In this document: piece after piece, positions 28,482-37,630 of the stretch
Layout of the letters: every line of letters begins with the position of its first letter
Numbering within the stretch: the stretch's first letter is position 1
Assembly: GCA_019873655.1 (NCBI GenBank)
Contig: JAIOAU010000002.1
Coordinates: 62,001 to 126,000 of the forward strand
Source: Chloroflexota bacterium
GTDB taxonomy: Bacteria; Chloroflexota; Anaerolineae; Anaerolineales; Villigracilaceae
DNA length: 64,000 nt
Reading direction: 5' to 3'
Made by a program: the position numbers and the translations under genes
The notes under the pieces: generated by a model
Told to the model about the DNA's origin: nothing
The model's database searches: none
Seen by the model: only the letters and a program-made list of their open reading frames with translations

Positions 28482-29279
28482 TTACTTGGGTTCTTTCATC
28501 GGCCGCCCCGACCCGCCACCGCGCAACATGAGAATCTCGGCCAGGATGCTGACGGCGATTTCTTCGGGCGTCTCGGCTCCGATGCCTAGGCCCATCGGCG
28601 AGTGGACGCGCCGGAGGGCCTCGTCGCTGACGCCCTGCTGATTGAGCTGCTTGCAGGTCTCGGCCCAGCGTCGCCGCGAGCCGATGATGCCGATGTAGGC
28701 GGCGGGCGTCTCCAGCAGGGCCGGCAGGCCGGCGACGTCCACCTGCGAGCCGCGCGTCGTCAGGACCAGGTAAGTCTGCGGGGTGATGGTCAGATGCAGG
28801 GGCAGTTCGGCCAGCGGGCAGGGGTAGAATTCGTCGGCGTCGGGGTTGGCTTCGGGGGTGCAGAATTCGGGCCGGTCGTCCGAGACGGCGACGCGGAAGC
28901 CGAGCCATTTGGCCAGGTGCGCCACGGCCTTGCCCACGTGTCCGCCGCCGACGACTACGATCATGGGGGGCGGCAAAATCGGTTCCACAAAGACCTCCAC
29001 CTGACCGCCGCACACGCCCACGTCGCCGCGGGAGGGGTCGGTCATGTTGTACGAAAGCAGGCGCGGCCGCCCGTCCTGGAGCGAGGCGAGCGCCTCCTGG
29101 CGGACGCGGTTCTCCAGTTCCCCGCCGCCGACCGTGCCGAGGATGCGGCCGTCGGGATAGACGAGCATTTTGCTGGTCGCGTGGCGGGGCGTCGAGCCGC
29201 TCGTCTTGACCACCGTGCAGAGGGCGGCGGCCTGATGGGTGCTTTCGAGTTCGGCAAGGGCCTGGTAAATAGTTTTCAT
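28482..29279 (-). CDS. XdhC/CoxI-family molybdenum-cofactor maturation protein
   Basis: A 265-residue protein. The N-terminal XdhC_CoxI domain (about 10-75) has AALCTVVKTSGSTPRHATSK. The C-terminal Rossmann domain (about 100-250) has VVGGGHVGKAVAHLAKWLGF and the final GLGIGAETPEEIAVSILAEI typical of XdhC. These chaperones sulfurate and insert the molybdenum cofactor into xanthine dehydrogenase-type enzymes. The likely client is the molybdenum hydroxylase encoded at 32.0-37.6 kb on the same strand, separated by the AbiE pair and the pyrophosphatase gene. Confidence 0.9.
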   Translation of the reverse strand: MKTIYQALAELESTHQAAALCTVVKTSGSTPRHATSKMLVYPDGRILGTVGGGELENRVRQEALASLQDGRPRLLSYNMTDPSRGDVGVCGGQVEVFVEPILPPPMIVVVGGGHVGKAVAHLAKWLGFRVAVSDDRPEFCTPEANPDADEFYPCPLAELPLHLTITPQTYLVLTTRGSQVDVAGLPALLETPAAYIGIIGSRRRWAETCKQLNQQGVSDEALRRVHSPMGLGIGAETPEEIAVSILAEILMLRGGGSGRPMKEPK

Positions 29280-30317: not shown

Positions 30318-31664
30318 CTATCTTTCCAGCAGACCCAGCACCACCGGCAGCAACTGCTTCTTGCGGCTGACCACGCCCTCGGCCAGGCGCGTGCCATCGG
30401 GCTGGGGCGGGTAGGGCAGGTCGCTCAGTTCGGGCGGCTCATTGGTGAGAATCAGGCGGCTGGCGCCGCGCACCACGTCGGTCACCATCAGCATGGCGAA
30501 GTCGAGGGCGCGCTGGTCGCGCAGGGCGGTCAGGGCGGCCTGAAGTTTCTCGCGCGTTTCGGTCAACTGCACCAGGTCGGTGACCTCGGCCTGGGCGATG
30601 GCGAAGCGGTAGCCGCCGGCCTCGTACTGCTTCAAGTCGGTGCTGACGATTTCCTCCGGCTCACGCGCCGAGAGACCGGCCGAGGCGGCCAGCACCTGCT
30701 GGCCGTAGGACTGAATCGTCTCGCCGGCCAGCGGCCCGGTGCGGACAAAGGCCCAGCGCGCCAGCCGCTCGGCGGCCTTCTTGTCGCGCTCGGTGGTGGT
30801 GGGCGAGGTCAGGATGAGCGTATCCGACAGAAGCCCCGCCAGCAGGAGGCCGGCGATGGGCGGCGGGGCGGCCAGCCCGGCGTCCTCGATTTGCTCCGAG
30901 ACGAGCGTGCTGGTGCTGCCGACGATGTCCACCGTGAACTTGATGGGGACGTGGGTGGACGGGTTGCCCAGGCGGTGATGGTCGAGGATTTCGAGCAGTT
31001 CGGCCTCTTCGAGGTTGGCGATGGCCTGGCGCGGCTCGTTGTGGTCCACCAGAATCACGCGCAGGCGCGGCGGGTTGAGCAGGTCGCGCTGGCGGCAGAC
31101 CCCGGCGTAGCAGCCCTTGTCGTCCACCACGAAGAAGTCGTCGCTCTCCTCGCGCAGGATGCGGTTGAGCGAGTCGCGGATGCGCCCGTTGGCGGGGAAT
31201 TTGGGGATGGAGGTGTCGCAGGCTTCGCGACAGGGGGTGTCGAGGATTTCGGTCAGGCGGATGTCGCGCCGCTGTGGGTTCGGACCGACCAGGCTGCTGA
31301 CCAGCCCGAAGAGGCTCTTGCCGGTCACCAGGCCGAAGGGCGCGCCGTCCTCGCTGACGATCGGGGCTGTCCCCCAAGTGCGCGAGGCGATCGCCCAGGC
31401 CTCCCGCAGCGGGTCGTCGGGGCGGGCGGTGTCCAGCCGGATGGAGACGGCCTCGAAGCGCGGCGAGGCGTCGTTGAGGAGGAGCGGCGCTTCCAGGCCG
31501 AGTTTCTTCAGCACCCAGGCCGTCTGCGGGTTGACCGCGCCGGCGCGGGCGGGGACGGTGTCGGCCAGGTCGCGCTCGTGCAGCAGCCAGGCGTAGCCCA
31601 CCGCCGCGGCGATCGTGTCGGTATCCGGGTTGACGTGTCCGATGACGTAGATGGGGTTGCTCAT
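30318..31664 (-). CDS. ppaC: Manganese-dependent (family II) inorganic pyrophosphatase with CBS insert
   Basis: A 448-residue DHH phosphoesterase. The N-terminal DHH part has YVIGHVNPDTDTIAAAV; the CBS pair is inserted at about 70-195 (TAPIVSEDGAPFGLVTGKSL and DDFFVVDDKGCYAGVCR); then come VILVDHNE and LEILDHHRLGNPS with the catalytic DHH residues, and the DHHA2 domain ends with the RKKQLLPVV substrate loop. The CBS type is allosterically controlled by adenine nucleotides. It drains pyrophosphate in the cytoplasm. The ATG at 31664 lies 6 nt from a -10 box. Confidence 0.93.
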   Translation of the reverse strand: MSNPIYVIGHVNPDTDTIAAAVGYAWLLHERDLADTVPARAGAVNPQTAWVLKKLGLEAPLLLNDASPRFEAVSIRLDTARPDDPLREAWAIASRTWGTAPIVSEDGAPFGLVTGKSLFGLVSSLVGPNPQRRDIRLTEILDTPCREACDTSIPKFPANGRIRDSLNRILREESDDFFVVDDKGCYAGVCRQRDLLNPPRLRVILVDHNEPRQAIANLEEAELLEILDHHRLGNPSTHVPIKFTVDIVGSTSTLVSEQIEDAGLAAPPPIAGLLLAGLLSDTLILTSPTTTERDKKAAERLARWAFVRTGPLAGETIQSYGQQVLAASAGLSAREPEEIVSTDLKQYEAGGYRFAIAQAEVTDLVQLTETREKLQAALTALRDQRALDFAMLMVTDVVRGASRLILTNEPPELSDLPYPPQPDGTRLAEGVVSRKKQLLPVVLGLLER

Positions 31665-32003: not shown

Positions 32004-35000
32004 CTACCGACTCGCGCGCAGCCCCCTCCACACCTTCTCCGGCGTGACCGGATTGTCGTCCACGTTCACGCCCACCGCGTCCAGCACGGCGTTGCCCACC
32101 GCCGGGGCGACCCCGTCCATCGGGATTTCGGCCACCGCCTTAACCCCGAAGGGATGGGTCGGCTCGTAGGTCTCGACGAAGATGACCCCCAGTTCGGGCA
32201 TTTCATCGGCGCGGAAGATGTGGTAGCGGTCGAAGTCGCGCTGACGGATGCGGCCGGTCTCGTCCCAGGTCATCTCCTCGCAGACGGCGTAGCCGAGCGC
32301 CTGCGTCATGCCGCCCTCGATTTGGCCGGAGGCCGTCAGCGGGTTGACGATGACGCCGCCATCCACTGCCATGACCAGTTTGTCCACCGTGACCTGGCCG
32401 GTTTCGGTGTCCACGGTCACCTCGGCGAACTGCGCCGCAAACGGCGGCGGCGAGGACGGGGAGACGTGAGACGCCGCGCCCATGATTTGCTCCTGCTCGT
32501 TGCGATGGAGCGCGTCCAGCGCAATTTCGGTCAGCGAAACCGACCTGCCATCGGGCGCAATTGCCATTCTATTTGCCAGCCGTATCTCCTCCGCCTTTAC
32601 CTGTGTACCTGTTCCCTGTGTACCTGTGGACTTGTCTGCCTGGCTATTCAACATCTTTGCCGCCCGAATCTTGATTCTCTCGGCGCATTGCTGGGCTGCC
32701 TTGACGACCGCCGCGCCGGAGATGTACGTCGTCGAAGACGCGTACGCGCCCTTGTCGAACGGCGTGAAGTCGGTGTCGGACGAATAGACCAGGATGTCCT
32801 CGACCGGCACGCCTAGCACCTCGGCGGCCATCTGCGCCAGGACCGTATCCGAGCCGGTGCCGAGGTCGGTCGCGCCGACTTGCAGGTTGAAGGAGCCGTC
32901 GTCGTTCATCTTGATCCACGCCCCGCCCATGTCCAGGTACGGGATGGCTGTGCCTTGCATGACGAGGGCGACGCCGATTCCCTTGCGTTTTCCAGTGTCA
33001 CGTTGCCCGGTGTCACGTGACACTGGAGCACTTGACACTGGAACACTTGACACTGGAACACGTGACACGGAAGCATGCCACGCCTCATTCCCAAACTTCT
33101 CATCCCACCCAATCGCCGCCTTGCCCTGGCGCACGCACTCCTCCAGCCCGACGGTGTGGATGATCTCCGGGCGCGGCTCGCGGCCCTCGTTCCAGGCGGT
33201 GCTGAAGGGGTGGAATTCGCCCGGGCGCAGGGCGTTCTTCAGGCGGAATTCGAGCGGGTCGAGGCCGAGGGCGCGGGCGATCTTCTCCATGTGACGCTCG
33301 ACGGCCCAGAAGCCCTGCGGCACGCCGTAGCCGCGGTACGCTCCGGCCGGCGGCGTGTTGGTGTACACGATGTCCGCGTAGAAGCGGATGTTGGGCGATT
33401 TGCGGTACTCGCCGTCGCCGACGTAGAGCGCCATGGCCTTGTGGCCGGTGTTGCCGGTCACGGTCAGAGCGTGACAGCCGTACGCGCCCGTGTCCGAAAG
33501 GACGCGCATCTCGTTGGCGGTCATCGTCCCGTCGCGCTTGACGCCGGTCTTCAGCCAGATTTTCATCGGGTGGCGCGAGCGGGCGGCGGTGAACTCCTCC
33601 TCGCGGGTGTACTCGTACAGGACGGGCCGCCCGGTGGCAATCGTCAGGTGGGCGGGGACGTCCTCCATCAGCACTTCCTGTTTGCCGCCGAATCCGCCGC
33701 CGATGCGCGGCTTGATGACCCGAATCCGTTTGACGGGCAGTCCCAGCACTGGGGCGAGTTGCCGCCGCACGTGGAACGGGACCTGCGTGCTGGTGCGGAT
33801 GACCAGGCGGTCGTCCTCGTCCCAGTAGGTCAGGGCGACGTGCGGCTCGATGTGCGCCTGCTGGACTTTCGGCACCTCGTACACGCCCTCGAAGATTTCG
33901 TCCGCCTCGGCGAATCCCTTTTCGACATCGCCGATGTCGATGCGGATTTCGGCGGCGAGATTCCGCTGCGGGTCGCAGACGGCGAAGGGGACGTATTCCG
34001 GCTCATCGTGGATGACCGGCGCGCCGGGCTTCATCGCCTCTTCCTTGTCCAGCACGGCGGGCAGCGGTTCGTACTCGACCTCGATGAGGCGCAGCGCGGC
34101 CTCGGCGATTTCCGGCGTCTCGGCGGCGACGAAGGCTACCCGGTCGCCCACGAAGCGGACTTTGTTGTCGAGCGAGAACGTATCCAGCGGGCCGGGGATG
34201 GGGTCAGATTGCCCGGCGGTCGAATAGACGACGCGCGGGATGTCCTGCCAGGTGAGCACCGCCGCCACGCCTGGCAGGGCCTTGGCCTTGCTGGCGTCGA
34301 TGCGCTTGATGCGGGCGTGGGCGTGGGGCGAGCGCAGGACTTTGGCGTAGAGCAGGCCGCGCTTTTTATTATCCCCGTAGGGGACGAAGTCGGCGGCGAA
34401 GGCCGGCTTTCCCTGCGCCAGTTTGACCGCGTCCACCTTGGCCTCCGGCTTGCCGACCACCTGCCAGCCGTCCGTTTGCGGGGCGACGACCATCTTCGGC
34501 ATCGTCCGCGTCTGCGTCAACGTCCCGCCCTCGTCCACAGGCGTCTCCGGCAATTCTTCTGTCTCGCTCCGCCCTGCTGCCTGCTCACTGAACACTGACG
34601 ACTGACCACTGAACACTGTTTCCCCGCGCATCACCGCCGCCGCTTTCAACACTGCCTGCACCGGCTTCACATAGCCCGTGCAGCGGCACAGCACGCCGGA
34701 AATGGCCTCGCGCACCTCGGCCTCGGTCGGGTTCGGGTTGCGGTCGAGCAGGGCTTTGGCGGCGAGAATCTGCGCCGGGGTGCAGTAGCCGCACTGAATG
34801 GCCCCGATCTCGATGAAGGCTTGTTGCAAGGGATGAAGCCCGGCGGTCTGCTTCCAGCCCTGTTCCGGGTGTTCGCCGATGGCCTCCAGCGTGGCAATCT
34901 GGTGGCCTTCGGCCTGGGCGGCCAGCATCACCGCCGCGTTGACCGGCCGCCCGTCGAGCAGGACGGTATCCGCGCCGGTCAGCCCGTGTTCGTCGCCGAA

Positions 35001-35105
35001 CTTGACCGAGTGGAATCCCAGCCGCCGCACGGCGGAGAGCAGGGTCTCGGAGGGAGTGGTTTCGAGTTCGCAGGAAATGCCGTTGATTTGAAGAGTCAGG
35101 TTCAT
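32004..35105 (-). CDS. Xanthine dehydrogenase-family enzyme: fused FeS and molybdopterin subunits
   Basis: A 1033-residue fusion. Residues 1-75 have the plant-ferredoxin fold, but the four Cys expected at 38, 43, 46 and 58 are Asp, Thr, Asp and Ala. Residues 76-160 keep the second [2Fe-2S] site (C105, C108, C140, C142 in QCGYC and LCRCTGY). After a linker, residues about 200-1030 form the Mo-binding subunit (VVGKPEAKVDAVKLAQGKPAF, IGGGFGGKQEV, RGYGVPQGFWAVER, and a C-terminal AEIPMDGVAPAVGNAVLDA). Low-complexity inserts interrupt the protein at three places. Start ATG 35105 has AAGGAG 7 nt upstream. It hydroxylates an unknown N-heterocycle or aldehyde; last gene of its operon. Confidence 0.92.
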   Translation of the reverse strand: MNLTLQINGISCELETTPSETLLSAVRRLGFHSVKFGDEHGLTGADTVLLDGRPVNAAVMLAAQAEGHQIATLEAIGEHPEQGWKQTAGLHPLQQAFIEIGAIQCGYCTPAQILAAKALLDRNPNPTEAEVREAISGVLCRCTGYVKPVQAVLKAAAVMRGETVFSGQSSVFSEQAAGRSETEELPETPVDEGGTLTQTRTMPKMVVAPQTDGWQVVGKPEAKVDAVKLAQGKPAFAADFVPYGDNKKRGLLYAKVLRSPHAHARIKRIDASKAKALPGVAAVLTWQDIPRVVYSTAGQSDPIPGPLDTFSLDNKVRFVGDRVAFVAAETPEIAEAALRLIEVEYEPLPAVLDKEEAMKPGAPVIHDEPEYVPFAVCDPQRNLAAEIRIDIGDVEKGFAEADEIFEGVYEVPKVQQAHIEPHVALTYWDEDDRLVIRTSTQVPFHVRRQLAPVLGLPVKRIRVIKPRIGGGFGGKQEVLMEDVPAHLTIATGRPVLYEYTREEEFTAARSRHPMKIWLKTGVKRDGTMTANEMRVLSDTGAYGCHALTVTGNTGHKAMALYVGDGEYRKSPNIRFYADIVYTNTPPAGAYRGYGVPQGFWAVERHMEKIARALGLDPLEFRLKNALRPGEFHPFSTAWNEGREPRPEIIHTVGLEECVRQGKAAIGWDEKFGNEAWHASVSRVPVSSVPVSSAPVSRDTGQRDTGKRKGIGVALVMQGTAIPYLDMGGAWIKMNDDGSFNLQVGATDLGTGSDTVLAQMAAEVLGVPVEDILVYSSDTDFTPFDKGAYASSTTYISGAAVVKAAQQCAERIKIRAAKMLNSQADKSTGTQGTGTQVKAEEIRLANRMAIAPDGRSVSLTEIALDALHRNEQEQIMGAASHVSPSSPPPFAAQFAEVTVDTETGQVTVDKLVMAVDGGVIVNPLTASGQIEGGMTQALGYAVCEEMTWDETGRIRQRDFDRYHIFRADEMPELGVIFVETYEPTHPFGVKAVAEIPMDGVAPAVGNAVLDAVGVNVDDNPVTPEKVWRGLRASR
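32597..32635. repeat. In-frame short repeat in the Mo-subunit gene (copy group 1)
   Basis: CTGTGTACCTGT-type units repeat about three times and encode the run STGTQGTGTQVK. The segment is polar and looks inserted into a loop of the Mo domain. Confidence 0.75.
32990..33070. repeat. In-frame 15-bp tandem repeat in the Mo-subunit gene (copy group 2)
   Basis: Units at 33017, 33032 and 33047 (about TTGACACTGGAACAC) plus a partial at 33062, flanked by GTGTCAC in the other orientation. It encodes SVSRVPVSSVPVSSAPVSRD. Confidence 0.85.
34586..34618. repeat. In-frame ACTG-rich repeat in the linker of the fused gene (copy group 3)
   Basis: CACTGAACACTG occurs twice, separated by ACGACTGAC. It encodes part of the linker FSGQSSVFSEQ between the FeS and Mo portions. 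Confidence 0.8.
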
Positions 35106-35117
35106 AAAGGACTCCTT

Positions 35118-35190
35118 CAACACAAAGGTCACAAAGGACACACAAAGGAGGACTTTGTGTTACTTCGCGTCTCTTTGTGTCCTTTGTGTT
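35118..35190. repeat. ACAAAGG-type repeat at the gene boundary
   Basis: ACACAAAGG(T/A)CACAAAGG units appear in one orientation and then in the other (CTTTGTGTCCTTTGTG), forming a long imperfect inverted repeat between the phosphatase and Mo-subunit genes. The last ten codons and stop of the phosphatase (KTQRTQRDAK) lie within it. Confidence 0.8.
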
Positions 35191-36833
35191 TTAACGATTT
35201 TCGCGGTCAGCGCGCTCACGCCCACCAGCGCCAGCCCCAGGACGGCCACGAACAGCCATTGGGCGATGCTCAAGAAGCCCAGATACAACACGGTAAACTC
35301 CGGCAGCGTCCACGTGACGGTCGCGCCGTTGACGGCGAAACTGAGCAGGATGGGCAGCGCCAGCAGGTAGAGGACGAACCAGACGAACCCCAGCGCGGAC
35401 CCGGCGGCCTGCCGCCGCGTCCCGCGCCAGGCGCGCAGCCCGGACATCGCCGTCAGCCAGCCGGCGAGCAGGGCGAGGGTCGAAGTGACGGCGATGTAGA
35501 GGGCAAAGTCTGTCACCCCGGTGATCCAACTGAGGCCGAAGGTGTTGTGGTCGAGGAGCAGATAGCGCCCAAAGAAGACGGCAAAATAAACCGCCGCCCC
35601 GGCCAGCATCCACAGCGCCTTTTTTTCGCGGCGCAGGATGAGCAGGTAGCCGGGCAGGACAGCCAAAAAGACGGCCAGCACGTTGCGCCAGACGCGTTCC
35701 TGCCCCAGGCGGGTCAGGCGCGCCCGCGCCAGCGCCGCCTGTCCCTGCTCAACCGTCAGCGGGCCTTCGGGCAAGACGACCGGCGCGCCGATGGCCTCCC
35801 CGTAGGCCCGGACGAGAGTCCGCTGCTGCTCGCTGACGGCCTGCCGGAGGGCGGCCTCGCGCTCGGGCGGCAGGACGAGCAGTTCGGTCAGCGGGCGGCC
35901 CTGGGCCGAGGCGGGGAGGTTCGTCCCCAGCAGGGCGGCCAGGGTGGGGGCCACGTCTGCCATCTGGATGTCGCCGTACTCACCGGGACGGACGCCCGCG
36001 CCAACCATCACAAACGGCTCGACCAGCGTGACCGGCTCCGCGCCGCCGTGTCCGCCCTGGTCAATCTGCCCGTGGTCGGAGACGACGATGAGCGTGTCCC
36101 GCTCCGGGTCGAGGGCGGCGGCGATTTGAGCCAGGAGCGCGTCGGCGCGGGAGGCGGCCGCGGCCCAGTTCGGACTCTGTGGCCCGCCCTCGTGATGCCC
36201 GGCGTAATCAATCTGGTCGAGGTGAATGAGAACGAGTTGGTAGTCGCCCTCCAGCCAGGGCAGGGCGGCGGCGACCACGGCTGTATCGTCCACGCCCTCC
36301 TCGCCGGAGGTGTAGAAGCCGGCGTCCACGCCGCTGGTCGCGAGCATTCCCTCGAACCACGTGTAGCCGGAGACGGCCGTCCGCAGTCCGGCGCGGTCGG
36401 CGGCGGCGAAGAGGTTGTCCTGGGTGAAGGGGCGGACGTGCGTCTCGTCCGGCGGGTTCATCGGCTGGCTGTCGTTCAGGTCGGGCCAGGCGCCGGTCAG
36501 GAGCGTCGTCCAGCCGGGGGCGGAGAAGGACGGCGGGCGGGAATGCATCACTGCCGAAGCGCCGCGGGCGCGCAGTTCGTTCAGGGCCGGCATGACGGCG
36601 GCGTCGGTGGAGGTGTCGTAGCGCAGGGCGTCCATCAGCACCAGGACGACGCGGCGGGTGAGCGGCGCGCCGAGCGGCTGGCCGGGCGTGGGCGGATTCC
36701 CGGCGAGCGGCGAGCGGTAGTTCTCGACCGAGGCCAGGACGCCGGTCGCCCAAAAGTACGCGCCGACGGCGGTCAGCGGCAGGAGGAGCAGGCCGAGCAG
36801 GAACCAGTTGACGGGACGGCGGGAGCGTCGCAT
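35160..36833 (-). CDS. Membrane-bound alkaline-phosphatase-superfamily hydrolase
   Basis: A 557-residue protein. It has an N-terminal anchor (about 8-32), a type I phosphodiesterase/sulfatase-like catalytic domain (about 60-345) and five or six C-terminal TM helices (about 365-545). Metal sites: VLVLMDALRYD near 65, the nucleophile region SAPGWTTLLTG near 108, HLDQIDYAGHH near 205 and VVSDHGQIDQGGHGG near 250. The layout recalls GPI-ethanolamine-phosphate transferases. It lies inside the molybdenum hydroxylase operon, which is unusual. It may cleave an extracellular phosphate ester or nucleotide. Function inferred from fold only. Confidence 0.8.
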   Translation of the reverse strand: MRRSRRPVNWFLLGLLLLPLTAVGAYFWATGVLASVENYRSPLAGNPPTPGQPLGAPLTRRVVLVLMDALRYDTSTDAAVMPALNELRARGASAVMHSRPPSFSAPGWTTLLTGAWPDLNDSQPMNPPDETHVRPFTQDNLFAAADRAGLRTAVSGYTWFEGMLATSGVDAGFYTSGEEGVDDTAVVAAALPWLEGDYQLVLIHLDQIDYAGHHEGGPQSPNWAAAASRADALLAQIAAALDPERDTLIVVSDHGQIDQGGHGGAEPVTLVEPFVMVGAGVRPGEYGDIQMADVAPTLAALLGTNLPASAQGRPLTELLVLPPEREAALRQAVSEQQRTLVRAYGEAIGAPVVLPEGPLTVEQGQAALARARLTRLGQERVWRNVLAVFLAVLPGYLLILRREKKALWMLAGAAVYFAVFFGRYLLLDHNTFGLSWITGVTDFALYIAVTSTLALLAGWLTAMSGLRAWRGTRRQAAGSALGFVWFVLYLLALPILLSFAVNGATVTWTLPEFTVLYLGFLSIAQWLFVAVLGLALVGVSALTAKIVKTQRTQRDAK

Positions 36834-36848
36834 TTTTTATCCTTGATG

Positions 36849-36885
36849 TGATGTGACAGTCATCTTGGAGATGACTGTCACATCA
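36849..36885. repeat. Perfect 17-bp inverted repeat between two operon genes
   Basis: Arms 36849-36865 and 36869-36885 (TGATGTGACAGTCATCT and its complement) with a TGG loop. It overlaps the last codons of the FAD-subunit gene and lies 16 nt before the phosphatase ATG. It could stabilise mRNA, be a regulator site or be a mobile short repeat. Confidence 0.9.
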
Positions 36886-37630
36886 TCAAAGCCTCCAGGC
36901 ATCTCTTTGCCAACACCACCGCCACCTCGCGGCGGTATTCGGCGGAGGCGAATTCATCGGCGGCGTCGTGGGCAGCGTTGCGGGCGGCGGGTTCGAGGCC
37001 GGTCGCGTCGCGGCCGTCCATCGCCACAGCGGGCGAACTGCCCCAGCCGCCGACGACCAGCCGCGTCCGGCCGGAGGTCCACTGCGCCAACGCCGCGCAG
37101 AGAATGGGCCGGTCGGCGGGCGTGCGGGCGACGTACTCGAAGGCCAGTTTCGCGTTCAACGGGATTTCGATTTGGGTGATGAGTTTGCCGCGCAACTGCT
37201 CGTCGCGCAGCGGCAGCAGGTCGCCCAAACTGATCACTAATGACTGTTTACTGATCACTGTCATTTTCGCGTCCAGCGCCAGCATGACCGCCGCGAAGGG
37301 CGAGCGCCCGTCGCAGGACACCAGCGCCCCGGCGACCGTGCCGGTGTTGCGCAGATTGAGCGGCGCTTCGAGTTTCAGCGCGGCCCGGAGCGCCTCGGGC
37401 GCGTGCGGCGATTCGAGCAGCGCCTGGAGCGTGACGGTCGCGCCGATTTCGAGTTTCTCGCCGGCTTTGTGGATTTTGTTCAGGCCGAGGGCCTGCAGGT
37501 CAACGACCTCGAAGTCGGCCTGGCGCTGCTGGTTGAGGATGGTCCCGCCGCCGAGGGGACGGGCGTCCGGGCGGGCCAGCAACTCGAGGGCCTCTTCGAG
37601 CGTTCGAGGGCGATGGTAGGCTCTAATCAT
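36878..37630 (-). CDS. FAD-binding subunit of the molybdenum hydroxylase (CoxM/XdhB type)
   Basis: A 250-residue flavoprotein that passes electrons from the FeS clusters to an acceptor. It starts MIRAYHRPRTLEEALELL and has the FAD loop RPLGGGTILN near 28-37, then NLRNTGTVAGALVSCDGRSP near 90-110, and the C-terminal CO-dehydrogenase flavoprotein domain. I chose the ATG at 37630, 5 nt after GGGAG; upstream in-frame codons lie beyond the predicted transcription start. First gene of the operon with the phosphatase and the fused FeS-Mo subunit. Confidence 0.9.
   Translation of the reverse strand: MIRAYHRPRTLEEALELLARPDARPLGGGTILNQQRQADFEVVDLQALGLNKIHKAGEKLEIGATVTLQALLESPHAPEALRAALKLEAPLNLRNTGTVAGALVSCDGRSPFAAVMLALDAKMTVISKQSLVISLGDLLPLRDEQLRGKLITQIEIPLNAKLAFEYVARTPADRPILCAALAQWTSGRTRLVVGGWGSSPAVAMDGRDATGLEPAARNAAHDAADEFASAEYRREVAVVLAKRCLEALMM
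37230..37265. repeat. ACTGATCACT repeat inside the FAD-subunit gene
   Basis: ACTGATCACT occurs twice in 36 nt, separated by AATGACTGTTT, and encodes MTVISKQSLVIS. It has the same flavour as the ACTG-rich repeat in the Mo-subunit gene. Confidence 0.7.

Follow-up and report, generated by a model that had tools for sequence, protein, structure and literature searches.

Predicted loss of [2Fe-2S] clusters recurs among XdhD-like molybdenum hydroxylases

A molybdenum hydroxylase encoded in a 64,000-nucleotide stretch of Chloroflexota DNA (the window, by which we mean the whole stretch analysed) lacks the four cysteine ligands of one of its two [2Fe-2S] clusters. Alignments indicate that the loss is wider than this single protein and would be a recurrent feature of an XdhD-like subfamily, E. 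coli XdhD included. Every station of the electron relay appears liable to loss in this subfamily, with the FAD mostly retained in the state represented by the window (cluster II lost, cluster I kept), and the molybdenum (Mo) site is, as far as aligned residues tell, intact across the subfamily despite the cluster losses.

Results

The gene (positions 32004..35105 of the window, minus strand) encodes a 1033-aa XdhD-like fusion of an FeS and a molybdopterin subunit, translated here from the ATG at 35105; its best NCBIfam match is TIGR03313. Cluster II, the plant-type cluster that adjoins the FAD in known structures, belongs to the N-terminal plant-type ferredoxin-like subdomain (residues 1-76; 34878..35105, minus strand). 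The preliminary description of this DNA had stated that all four plant-type ligands are lost, and the translation and ligand alignment bear this out: the four positions hold D38, T43, D46 and A58, and the codons of this emptied site run from 34994 down to 34932 (34932..34994, minus strand), precisely where they had been placed. The second cluster (I) is complete, as also described, with C105, C108, C140 and C142 present in the Fer2_2 domain (residues 84-152; 34650..34856, minus strand). The only cysteines of the protein are at positions 12, 105, 108, 140, 142, 377, 544, 657, 807 and 942, which leaves C12, off the loop, as the sole cysteine of the cluster II subdomain. The Pfam search found Fer2_2 at 97 bits and gave no Fer2 match at E<=0.001, while Fer2 was matched at 33 bits in L066, a relative with four cysteines. 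The molybdopterin-binding domains (residues 215-1033; 32007..34463, minus strand) matched MoCoBD_1 (268 bits), MoCoBD_2 (236 bits) and Ald_Xan_dh_C (94 bits), and contain E993 (the catalytic Glu), Q476, Q415, R591 and E640.

An AlphaFold2 model, built with 46 relatives, gave a mean pLDDT of 84.5 and a pTM of 0.88. It retains the N-terminal ferredoxin-like beta-grasp fold with confidence (block-mean pLDDT 90-95, residues 31-60). In structural comparison, the top row was the alpha subunit of 4-hydroxybenzoyl-CoA reductase (1RM6; Z 40.3, rmsd 1.9, 727 residues), and the model matched Desulfovibrio gigas (D. gigas) aldehyde oxidoreductase (1SIJ) over its full length (Z 38.7, rmsd 2.5, 869 residues). 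Short tandem repeats lie inside the Mo gene at 32598-32628, 33014-33072 and 34586-34618 (periods 8, 15 and 7); the second and third coincide in part with linkers modelled at low confidence (residues 681-702 and 168-196), and the repeats look as if small repeats had gone into tolerant spots. An inverted pair of the ACAAAGG-CACAAAG type (35122-35187) is located just upstream of the gene start, one arm within the end of the neighboring phosphodiesterase gene; the window holds two matches, with none expected by chance.

The TIGR03313 (XdhD) score was 701.7 bits, below the cutoff of 1101.9. Scores for TIGR03194 (4-hydroxybenzoyl-CoA reductase; 549.2 bits, cutoff 994.55) and TIGR03311 (the selenium-dependent molybdenum hydroxylase comparison; 437, cutoff 830.45) also fell below. 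Taken together, the matches assign the protein to the XdhD branch within the xanthine oxidase family. Its XdhD-like identity has good support, with a score short of TIGR03313 membership. Molybdopterin domains, overall fold and catalytic Glu are those of the xanthine oxidase family, and of the pair of [2Fe-2S] clusters that also defines it, the ligands of cluster II are absent and those of cluster I present. Judged by its sequence, the protein is thus a family homologue that breaks the two-cluster definition. Equatorial Mo=S (or Se) is a further trait of the family; the window has an XdhC-like maturation gene (below).

The clade of the window protein comprises 33 rows including the window; a 34th, L068, which has lost both clusters, was omitted from the table. 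All 33 rows carry the ligand change in the form D-(S/T)-D-(G/A): D38 and D46 are invariant, as are the flanking F36 and E39, position 43 is Ser in 22 and Thr in 11, and position 58 is Gly in 30 and Ala in 3. Within the clade, the emptied loop (residues 33-60) had a mean pairwise identity of 0.816, against 0.716 in the cluster II subdomain and 0.384 in the linker; the cluster I and Mo domains reached 0.860 and 0.844. The order of regional identity was similar, at lower values, in two comparison groups that have four cysteines; by this measure an emptied site and a filled one are about equally constrained in relation to the protein around them. A shifted set of cluster II ligands was rejected, since C12 is alone in the subdomain and H40 is variable (His in 13 of 33). 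The FeS domain was matched at E<=0.001 in 59 of 61 genomes (its own and 60 relatives), paralogues included.

Sequencing error, which the preliminary description had itself named as able to overturn its claim, is excluded as the source of the change by its presence throughout the clade. A decaying gene fares no better: the open frames are long, the Mo site is intact, and the N-terminal DNA of E. coli xdhD, whose product has no cysteine in residues 1-160, is found in 5130 of 5426 complete E. coli genomes, with at least 95% identity in 5128. Error or decay as the explanation of the missing cysteines therefore has next to no probability.

In a class-wide search, 218 of 396 genomes matched at E<=1e-220. 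A second scan yielded 589 related stretches, of which the best 80 were used, mostly from Chloroflexi or Anaerolineae metagenome assemblies; removal of six partial rows (L238, L262, L263, L264, L273, L280) and 15 repeats left 59. These were joined to 120 rows, including the window and E. coli, to give a sample of 179 with four outgroup rows. Left out of the 120 rows were L085 (the window's own sequence), L033, L034, L035, L041 and L171 (FeS domain absent or unaligned), and the second xanthine dehydrogenase (XDH) Mo subunits of L069 and L070. Among the 179 rows (59 from the best 80 of 589), both clusters were kept in 95, cluster II was lost in 54, cluster I in 6 and both in 24; cluster II is thus gone in 78 rows and cluster I in 30.

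The replacement residues at the cluster II ligand positions are mostly D-(S/T)-D-(G/A/V/N) in the window clade and its kin, with DSDS in L154 and L278 and DSDG in L166 and L288. Rows that have lost both sets of ligands combine DSDG at site II with CESD at site I (L157-L159), DTDQ with SNDE (L162, L267), STA(D/E) with S(S/A)(D/C)E (L279, L285 and others), or DSDG with GYSA (L068 and L248, 89% identical to each other). E. coli XdhD has DADS at site II and SNSD at site I, with a one-residue insertion in the loop; its RefSeq name is Mo/Fe-S-binding subunit in 4 of 5 rows among the matches listed. The converse state, with cluster II present, shows S(E/D)SE at site I in L144, L147, L149, L150 and L153, and SNVD in L070. 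Two rows labelled Acidimicrobiales/Acidimicrobiia (L285, L289) carry the both-lost form STAE/SSDE beside an intact-looking FAD gene, which represents either transfer or mis-binned contigs.

Parsimony on a FastTree phylogeny of the Mo domain (179 rows, 59 from the best 80 of 589) gave 12 changes for cluster II and 8 for cluster I, an IQ-TREE phylogeny of 52 chosen rows with E. coli omitted gave 8 and 7, and an FeS-domain tree of 120 rows without the ligand columns gave 5 and 6. Approximately unbiased (AU) tests on the 52 chosen rows (LG+G4, quick tree) rejected a single origin of all cluster II losses (p 3e-8) and of all cluster I losses (p 2e-62), as well as one origin joining the window clade with L154/L278/L157 (p 1e-8) or with L166 (p 7e-8). 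Two joinings were not rejected, that of the window clade with L065 (p 0.52) and that of L166 with L162/L268/L269 (p 0.11), and the window clade and L061/L064/L237 already sit together in the best tree, unsupported (60). Because some joinings survive, 12 changes is an upper-end count for cluster II. A cautious figure, from a conservative merge by hand rather than a formal test, is some six to seven independent losses of cluster II. Transfer of FeS domains between lineages may contribute, as the FeS-domain tree needs fewer changes for both clusters.

The emptied sites are stereotyped. Loss at site II is all-or-none, none of the 78 lost sites retaining any cysteine (179 rows, 59 from the best 80 of 589); at site I, 24 of the 30 lost sites have no cysteine and 6 have one (the same 59 rows included). 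Two acids occupy the emptied site in 64 of 78 rows for cluster II and 24 of 30 for cluster I, counted as rows, not independent events, and again including the best 80 of 589. A change from Cys to Asp or Glu takes two or three base changes in the genetic code, so drift explains the acids poorly; we infer that they make up for the net charge of the cluster, a putative role. The acid-free GYSA at site I of L068 and L248 would fit a recent loss that has yet to be re-optimised. The emptied site might instead hold another metal or cofactor through D38, E39, S/T43 and D46, serving electron transfer or structure. The invariance of D38, E39 and D46 in all 33 clade rows and the emergence of a similar D..S/T..D motif in further lineages would agree with such a ligand set. 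Its hard oxygen donors, however, are of the Mg, Ca or Mn type and atypical for electron carriers, position 58 is Gly or Ala in 33 of 33, and E39 is replaced by Gly in L154, all of which makes an alternative metal quite doubtful.

In the Mo domain, Q476 and E640 are found in all 175 non-outgroup rows, E993, which we take to be the equivalent of bovine E1261, in 174 of 175 (L239 has a gap there), and R591 in 174 of 175, with Gln in E. coli; the best 80 of 589 are included in each count. E640 aligns with E606 of E. coli XdhD, and is equally Glu in 3 of the 4 outgroup rows, so it is non-diagnostic. For E606, PMC12507026 proposes a role in orienting urate.

The same paper reports that E. coli XdhD-YgfM with urate and NADH produces yanthine, names SsnA as a marker of the anaerobic urate pathway and records a luciferase-like gene in Chloroflexota (PMC12507026). 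Of 38 genomes that carry the gene, 35 have an SsnA score above the cutoff, compared with 12 of 21 genomes drawn from those listed as unmatched in the class-wide search (E<=1e-220) or in the FeS-domain search (Fisher p 0.002); SsnA is thus common in genomes lacking a strong match, too. In 11 of the 38, SsnA and the gene share a contig and are at most 23 kb apart. In the window's own genome, one of the 35, it is on a different contig (C13:41731-43053), and the function is accordingly drawn from relatives. Two genomes with both clusters lost, G637 and G735, have a YgeW-like carbamoyltransferase, a YqeA-like kinase and SsnA in the adjoining stretch; Pfam also detected a luciferase-like protein, an F420-dependent NADP oxidoreductase family protein and a PALP enzyme in G637, and like frames occur in G735. 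The likely reaction is urate to 2,8-dioxopurine (yanthine), as in E. coli XdhD-YgfM, and the window enzyme probably reduces urate. The genome of the window also encodes another XDH (L291, G000:C21:12000-30000), which has Fer2, Fer2_2 and FAD domains and lies next to YqeB- and YqeC-like genes; YqeB and YqeC are published markers of selenium-dependent molybdenum hydroxylases. Genome G049 has, besides a four-Cys orthologue, a second XdhD-like open frame of 1152 aa adjoining SsnA (L292:12197-15652).

A gene for a YgfM-like FAD-binding partner subunit of 250 aa (36878..37630, minus strand; TIGR03312, FAD_binding_5) is located 1.8 kb upstream of the Mo gene, with its GGGT and TVAG motifs intact. Its best NCBIfam match, TIGR03312, reached 77.3 bits against a cutoff of 241.5, and E. 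coli YgfM scored 55 bits. Between the FAD and Mo genes lies a phosphodiesterase/metalloenzyme-type protein (35160..36833, minus strand; Pfam), which is probably irrelevant to the enzyme and has homologues in 5 of 40 relative loci. On the other side are two more frequent neighbors: an XdhC/YqeB-type Mo-cofactor maturation protein (28482..29279, minus strand; Pfam XdhC_C and XdhC_CoxI; 173 bits against E. coli YqeB; homologues in 15 of 40 loci) and a recurrent homologue of Mn-dependent inorganic pyrophosphatase with CBS (30318..31664, minus strand; NCBIfam and Pfam; 17 of 40).

An FAD partner was found near the Mo gene in 14 of 21 loci (L045-L065). Among 14 further clade genomes searched whole, which overlap partly with the seven loci missing the partner nearby, 13 have an orthologue of 58-67% identity near the gene or elsewhere. 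The best FAD-subunit match in G030 reached only 32%, and orthologues of 61% and 55% occur in G024 (both clusters lost) and G047 (cluster I lost). The notion that an absent FAD caused the loss was therefore discarded for the window clade. Judged by a simple pattern, 37 of the 39 rows that have lost cluster II and kept I have intact FAD motifs, compared with 9 of 16 where both are lost, 5 of 5 where I is lost and 39 of 52 where both are kept; some of these rows represent the best match in the genome rather than a neighbor, and one gene (L166/L198) is counted twice. A clean correlation between FAD decay and cluster loss was likewise rejected, as 13 of the 52 rows that keep both clusters are degenerate too by this pattern. 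In L120, L124-L126, L241, L245, L246 and L265, both clusters are intact and the second motif of the FAD protein is altered (LSLSN type); here the FAD, not the clusters, may be what went.

Discussion

We tentatively favor, with a probability of about 0.45, an XdhD-type purine dehydroxylase that operates with one long electron hop from FAD to cluster I. Electrons would come in at the FAD subunit and cross the empty site in a single hop of ~18-20 angstroms to cluster I, and then pass to Mo. The two carboxylates would compensate for the charge that went with cluster II and hold the loop in its fold, and with it the FAD-docking surface. The rate of such a hop would be enough for a slow catabolic dehydroxylase, which would remove the selection for cluster II. 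The distance follows from those in xanthine oxidase. For 18-20 angstroms and zero driving force, the Moser-Dutton ruler formula would give ~150 to 10 per second, and for 25 angstroms or more 0.01 per second or less. By this estimate, loss of cluster II alone would be tolerable; loss of both clusters would not, unless Mo is served by a donor along another route or the reaction is redox-neutral.

The preliminary description had suggested that the loss of the cluster nearest the FAD leaves a gap in the relay, such that another acceptor or a different path might be needed. The loss itself is well supported, as is its sharing by a whole clade. A fatal gap is harder to maintain, because the FAD partner is kept and the hop would proceed at ~10-150 per second; moreover, the enzyme probably works in the reductive direction, in which case one should ask about the electron donor, not the acceptor.

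A different donor is nevertheless conceivable. A soluble carrier, e.g., a ferredoxin, a flavodoxin or an F420-linked protein, could dock near cluster I or Mo, with the FAD subunit turning accessory. Where both clusters are lost, the FAD motifs are degenerate in 7 of 16 rows with the Mo site intact, which leaves little of the classic relay, and F420-related genes stand beside the pathway in G637 and G735. D. gigas aldehyde oxidoreductase is described as an enzyme without FAD in which flavodoxin is involved in electron transfer (PMC10223205). In the state of the window, by contrast, 37 of 39 rows still have an FAD gene whose motifs are intact, and we consider such a carrier unlikely there, although a serious candidate.

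The members that have lost both clusters fall outside the long-hop explanation yet keep the same Mo site, and a mechanism that ignores the relay would cover them all. The subfamily could be relay-free, the Mo passing hydroxyls between two purines or taking a direct donor, with clusters and FAD as vestiges; stations would then be lost repeatedly and in many combinations around an unchanged Mo site. As a general account this strikes us as improbable. Its redox-neutral version, to which we attach a similarly low likelihood, is a transhydroxylation in which the hydroxylation of one purine would reduce the Mo and the dehydroxylation of a second would reoxidise it, leaving the relay unneeded and letting clusters and FAD drift off; the net conversion would be xanthine to yanthine, with urate as an intermediate. 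Clusters I and II and the FAD motifs are indeed lost in several combinations, while the catalytic Glu is never another residue. The E. coli assay, in the part of the report available, used 10 uM enzyme and leaves the rate and an NADH-free control undescribed, but NADH was supplied and is credited by the authors as the reductant (PMC12507026). Most lineages also retain the FAD protein, and a literature search for a xanthine reaction of such a kind with molybdenum gave nothing.

Family members are described in PMC9370002 as having minimally a pair of [2Fe-2S] clusters, a minimum that the XdhD subfamily appears to contradict. A search by title or abstract opening, mostly outside subscription papers, found no report of cluster-ligand loss, and the missing cysteines go unmentioned in the accessible portions of PMC12507026, PMC12990295, PMC2997495, PMC2276186, PMC3958847, PMC9370002 and PMC10223205. 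A textbook feature of the family thus seems dispensable, and nature would have provided, in this subfamily, both single and double knock-outs of a classic wire of biology. One of the double knock-outs is in E. coli K-12, in a protein that is annotated as Fe-S-binding and serves as urate reductase in the anaerobic urate pathway described recently. It becomes directly testable whether electrons get to Mo in the absence of clusters, and by what means.

By sequence, the closest solved Mo subunit is that of 4-hydroxybenzoyl-CoA reductase (1RM6, alpha; 345 bits), in which, unlike in the window protein, the FeS subunit is separate (gamma chain). That enzyme dehydroxylates its substrate and carries both clusters. 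D. gigas aldehyde oxidoreductase (1SIJ) shares the FeS-Mo fusion and the full-length fold with the window protein and differs in having both clusters and no FAD (PMC10223205). The nearest characterised relative is XdhD. E. coli XdhD-YgfM resembles the window system in the FeS-Mo fusion, the separate small FAD subunit and the best NCBIfam match of both subunits, and XdhD further shares Asp at ligands 1 and 3 of site II, the catalytic Glu, the E606 equivalent and the link to SsnA. The two proteins are 41% identical, with Gln in E. coli at the position of R591 and the window protein below the family cutoff. The principal difference is in the clusters: the cysteines of both are gone from E. coli XdhD, whereas the window protein retains cluster I.
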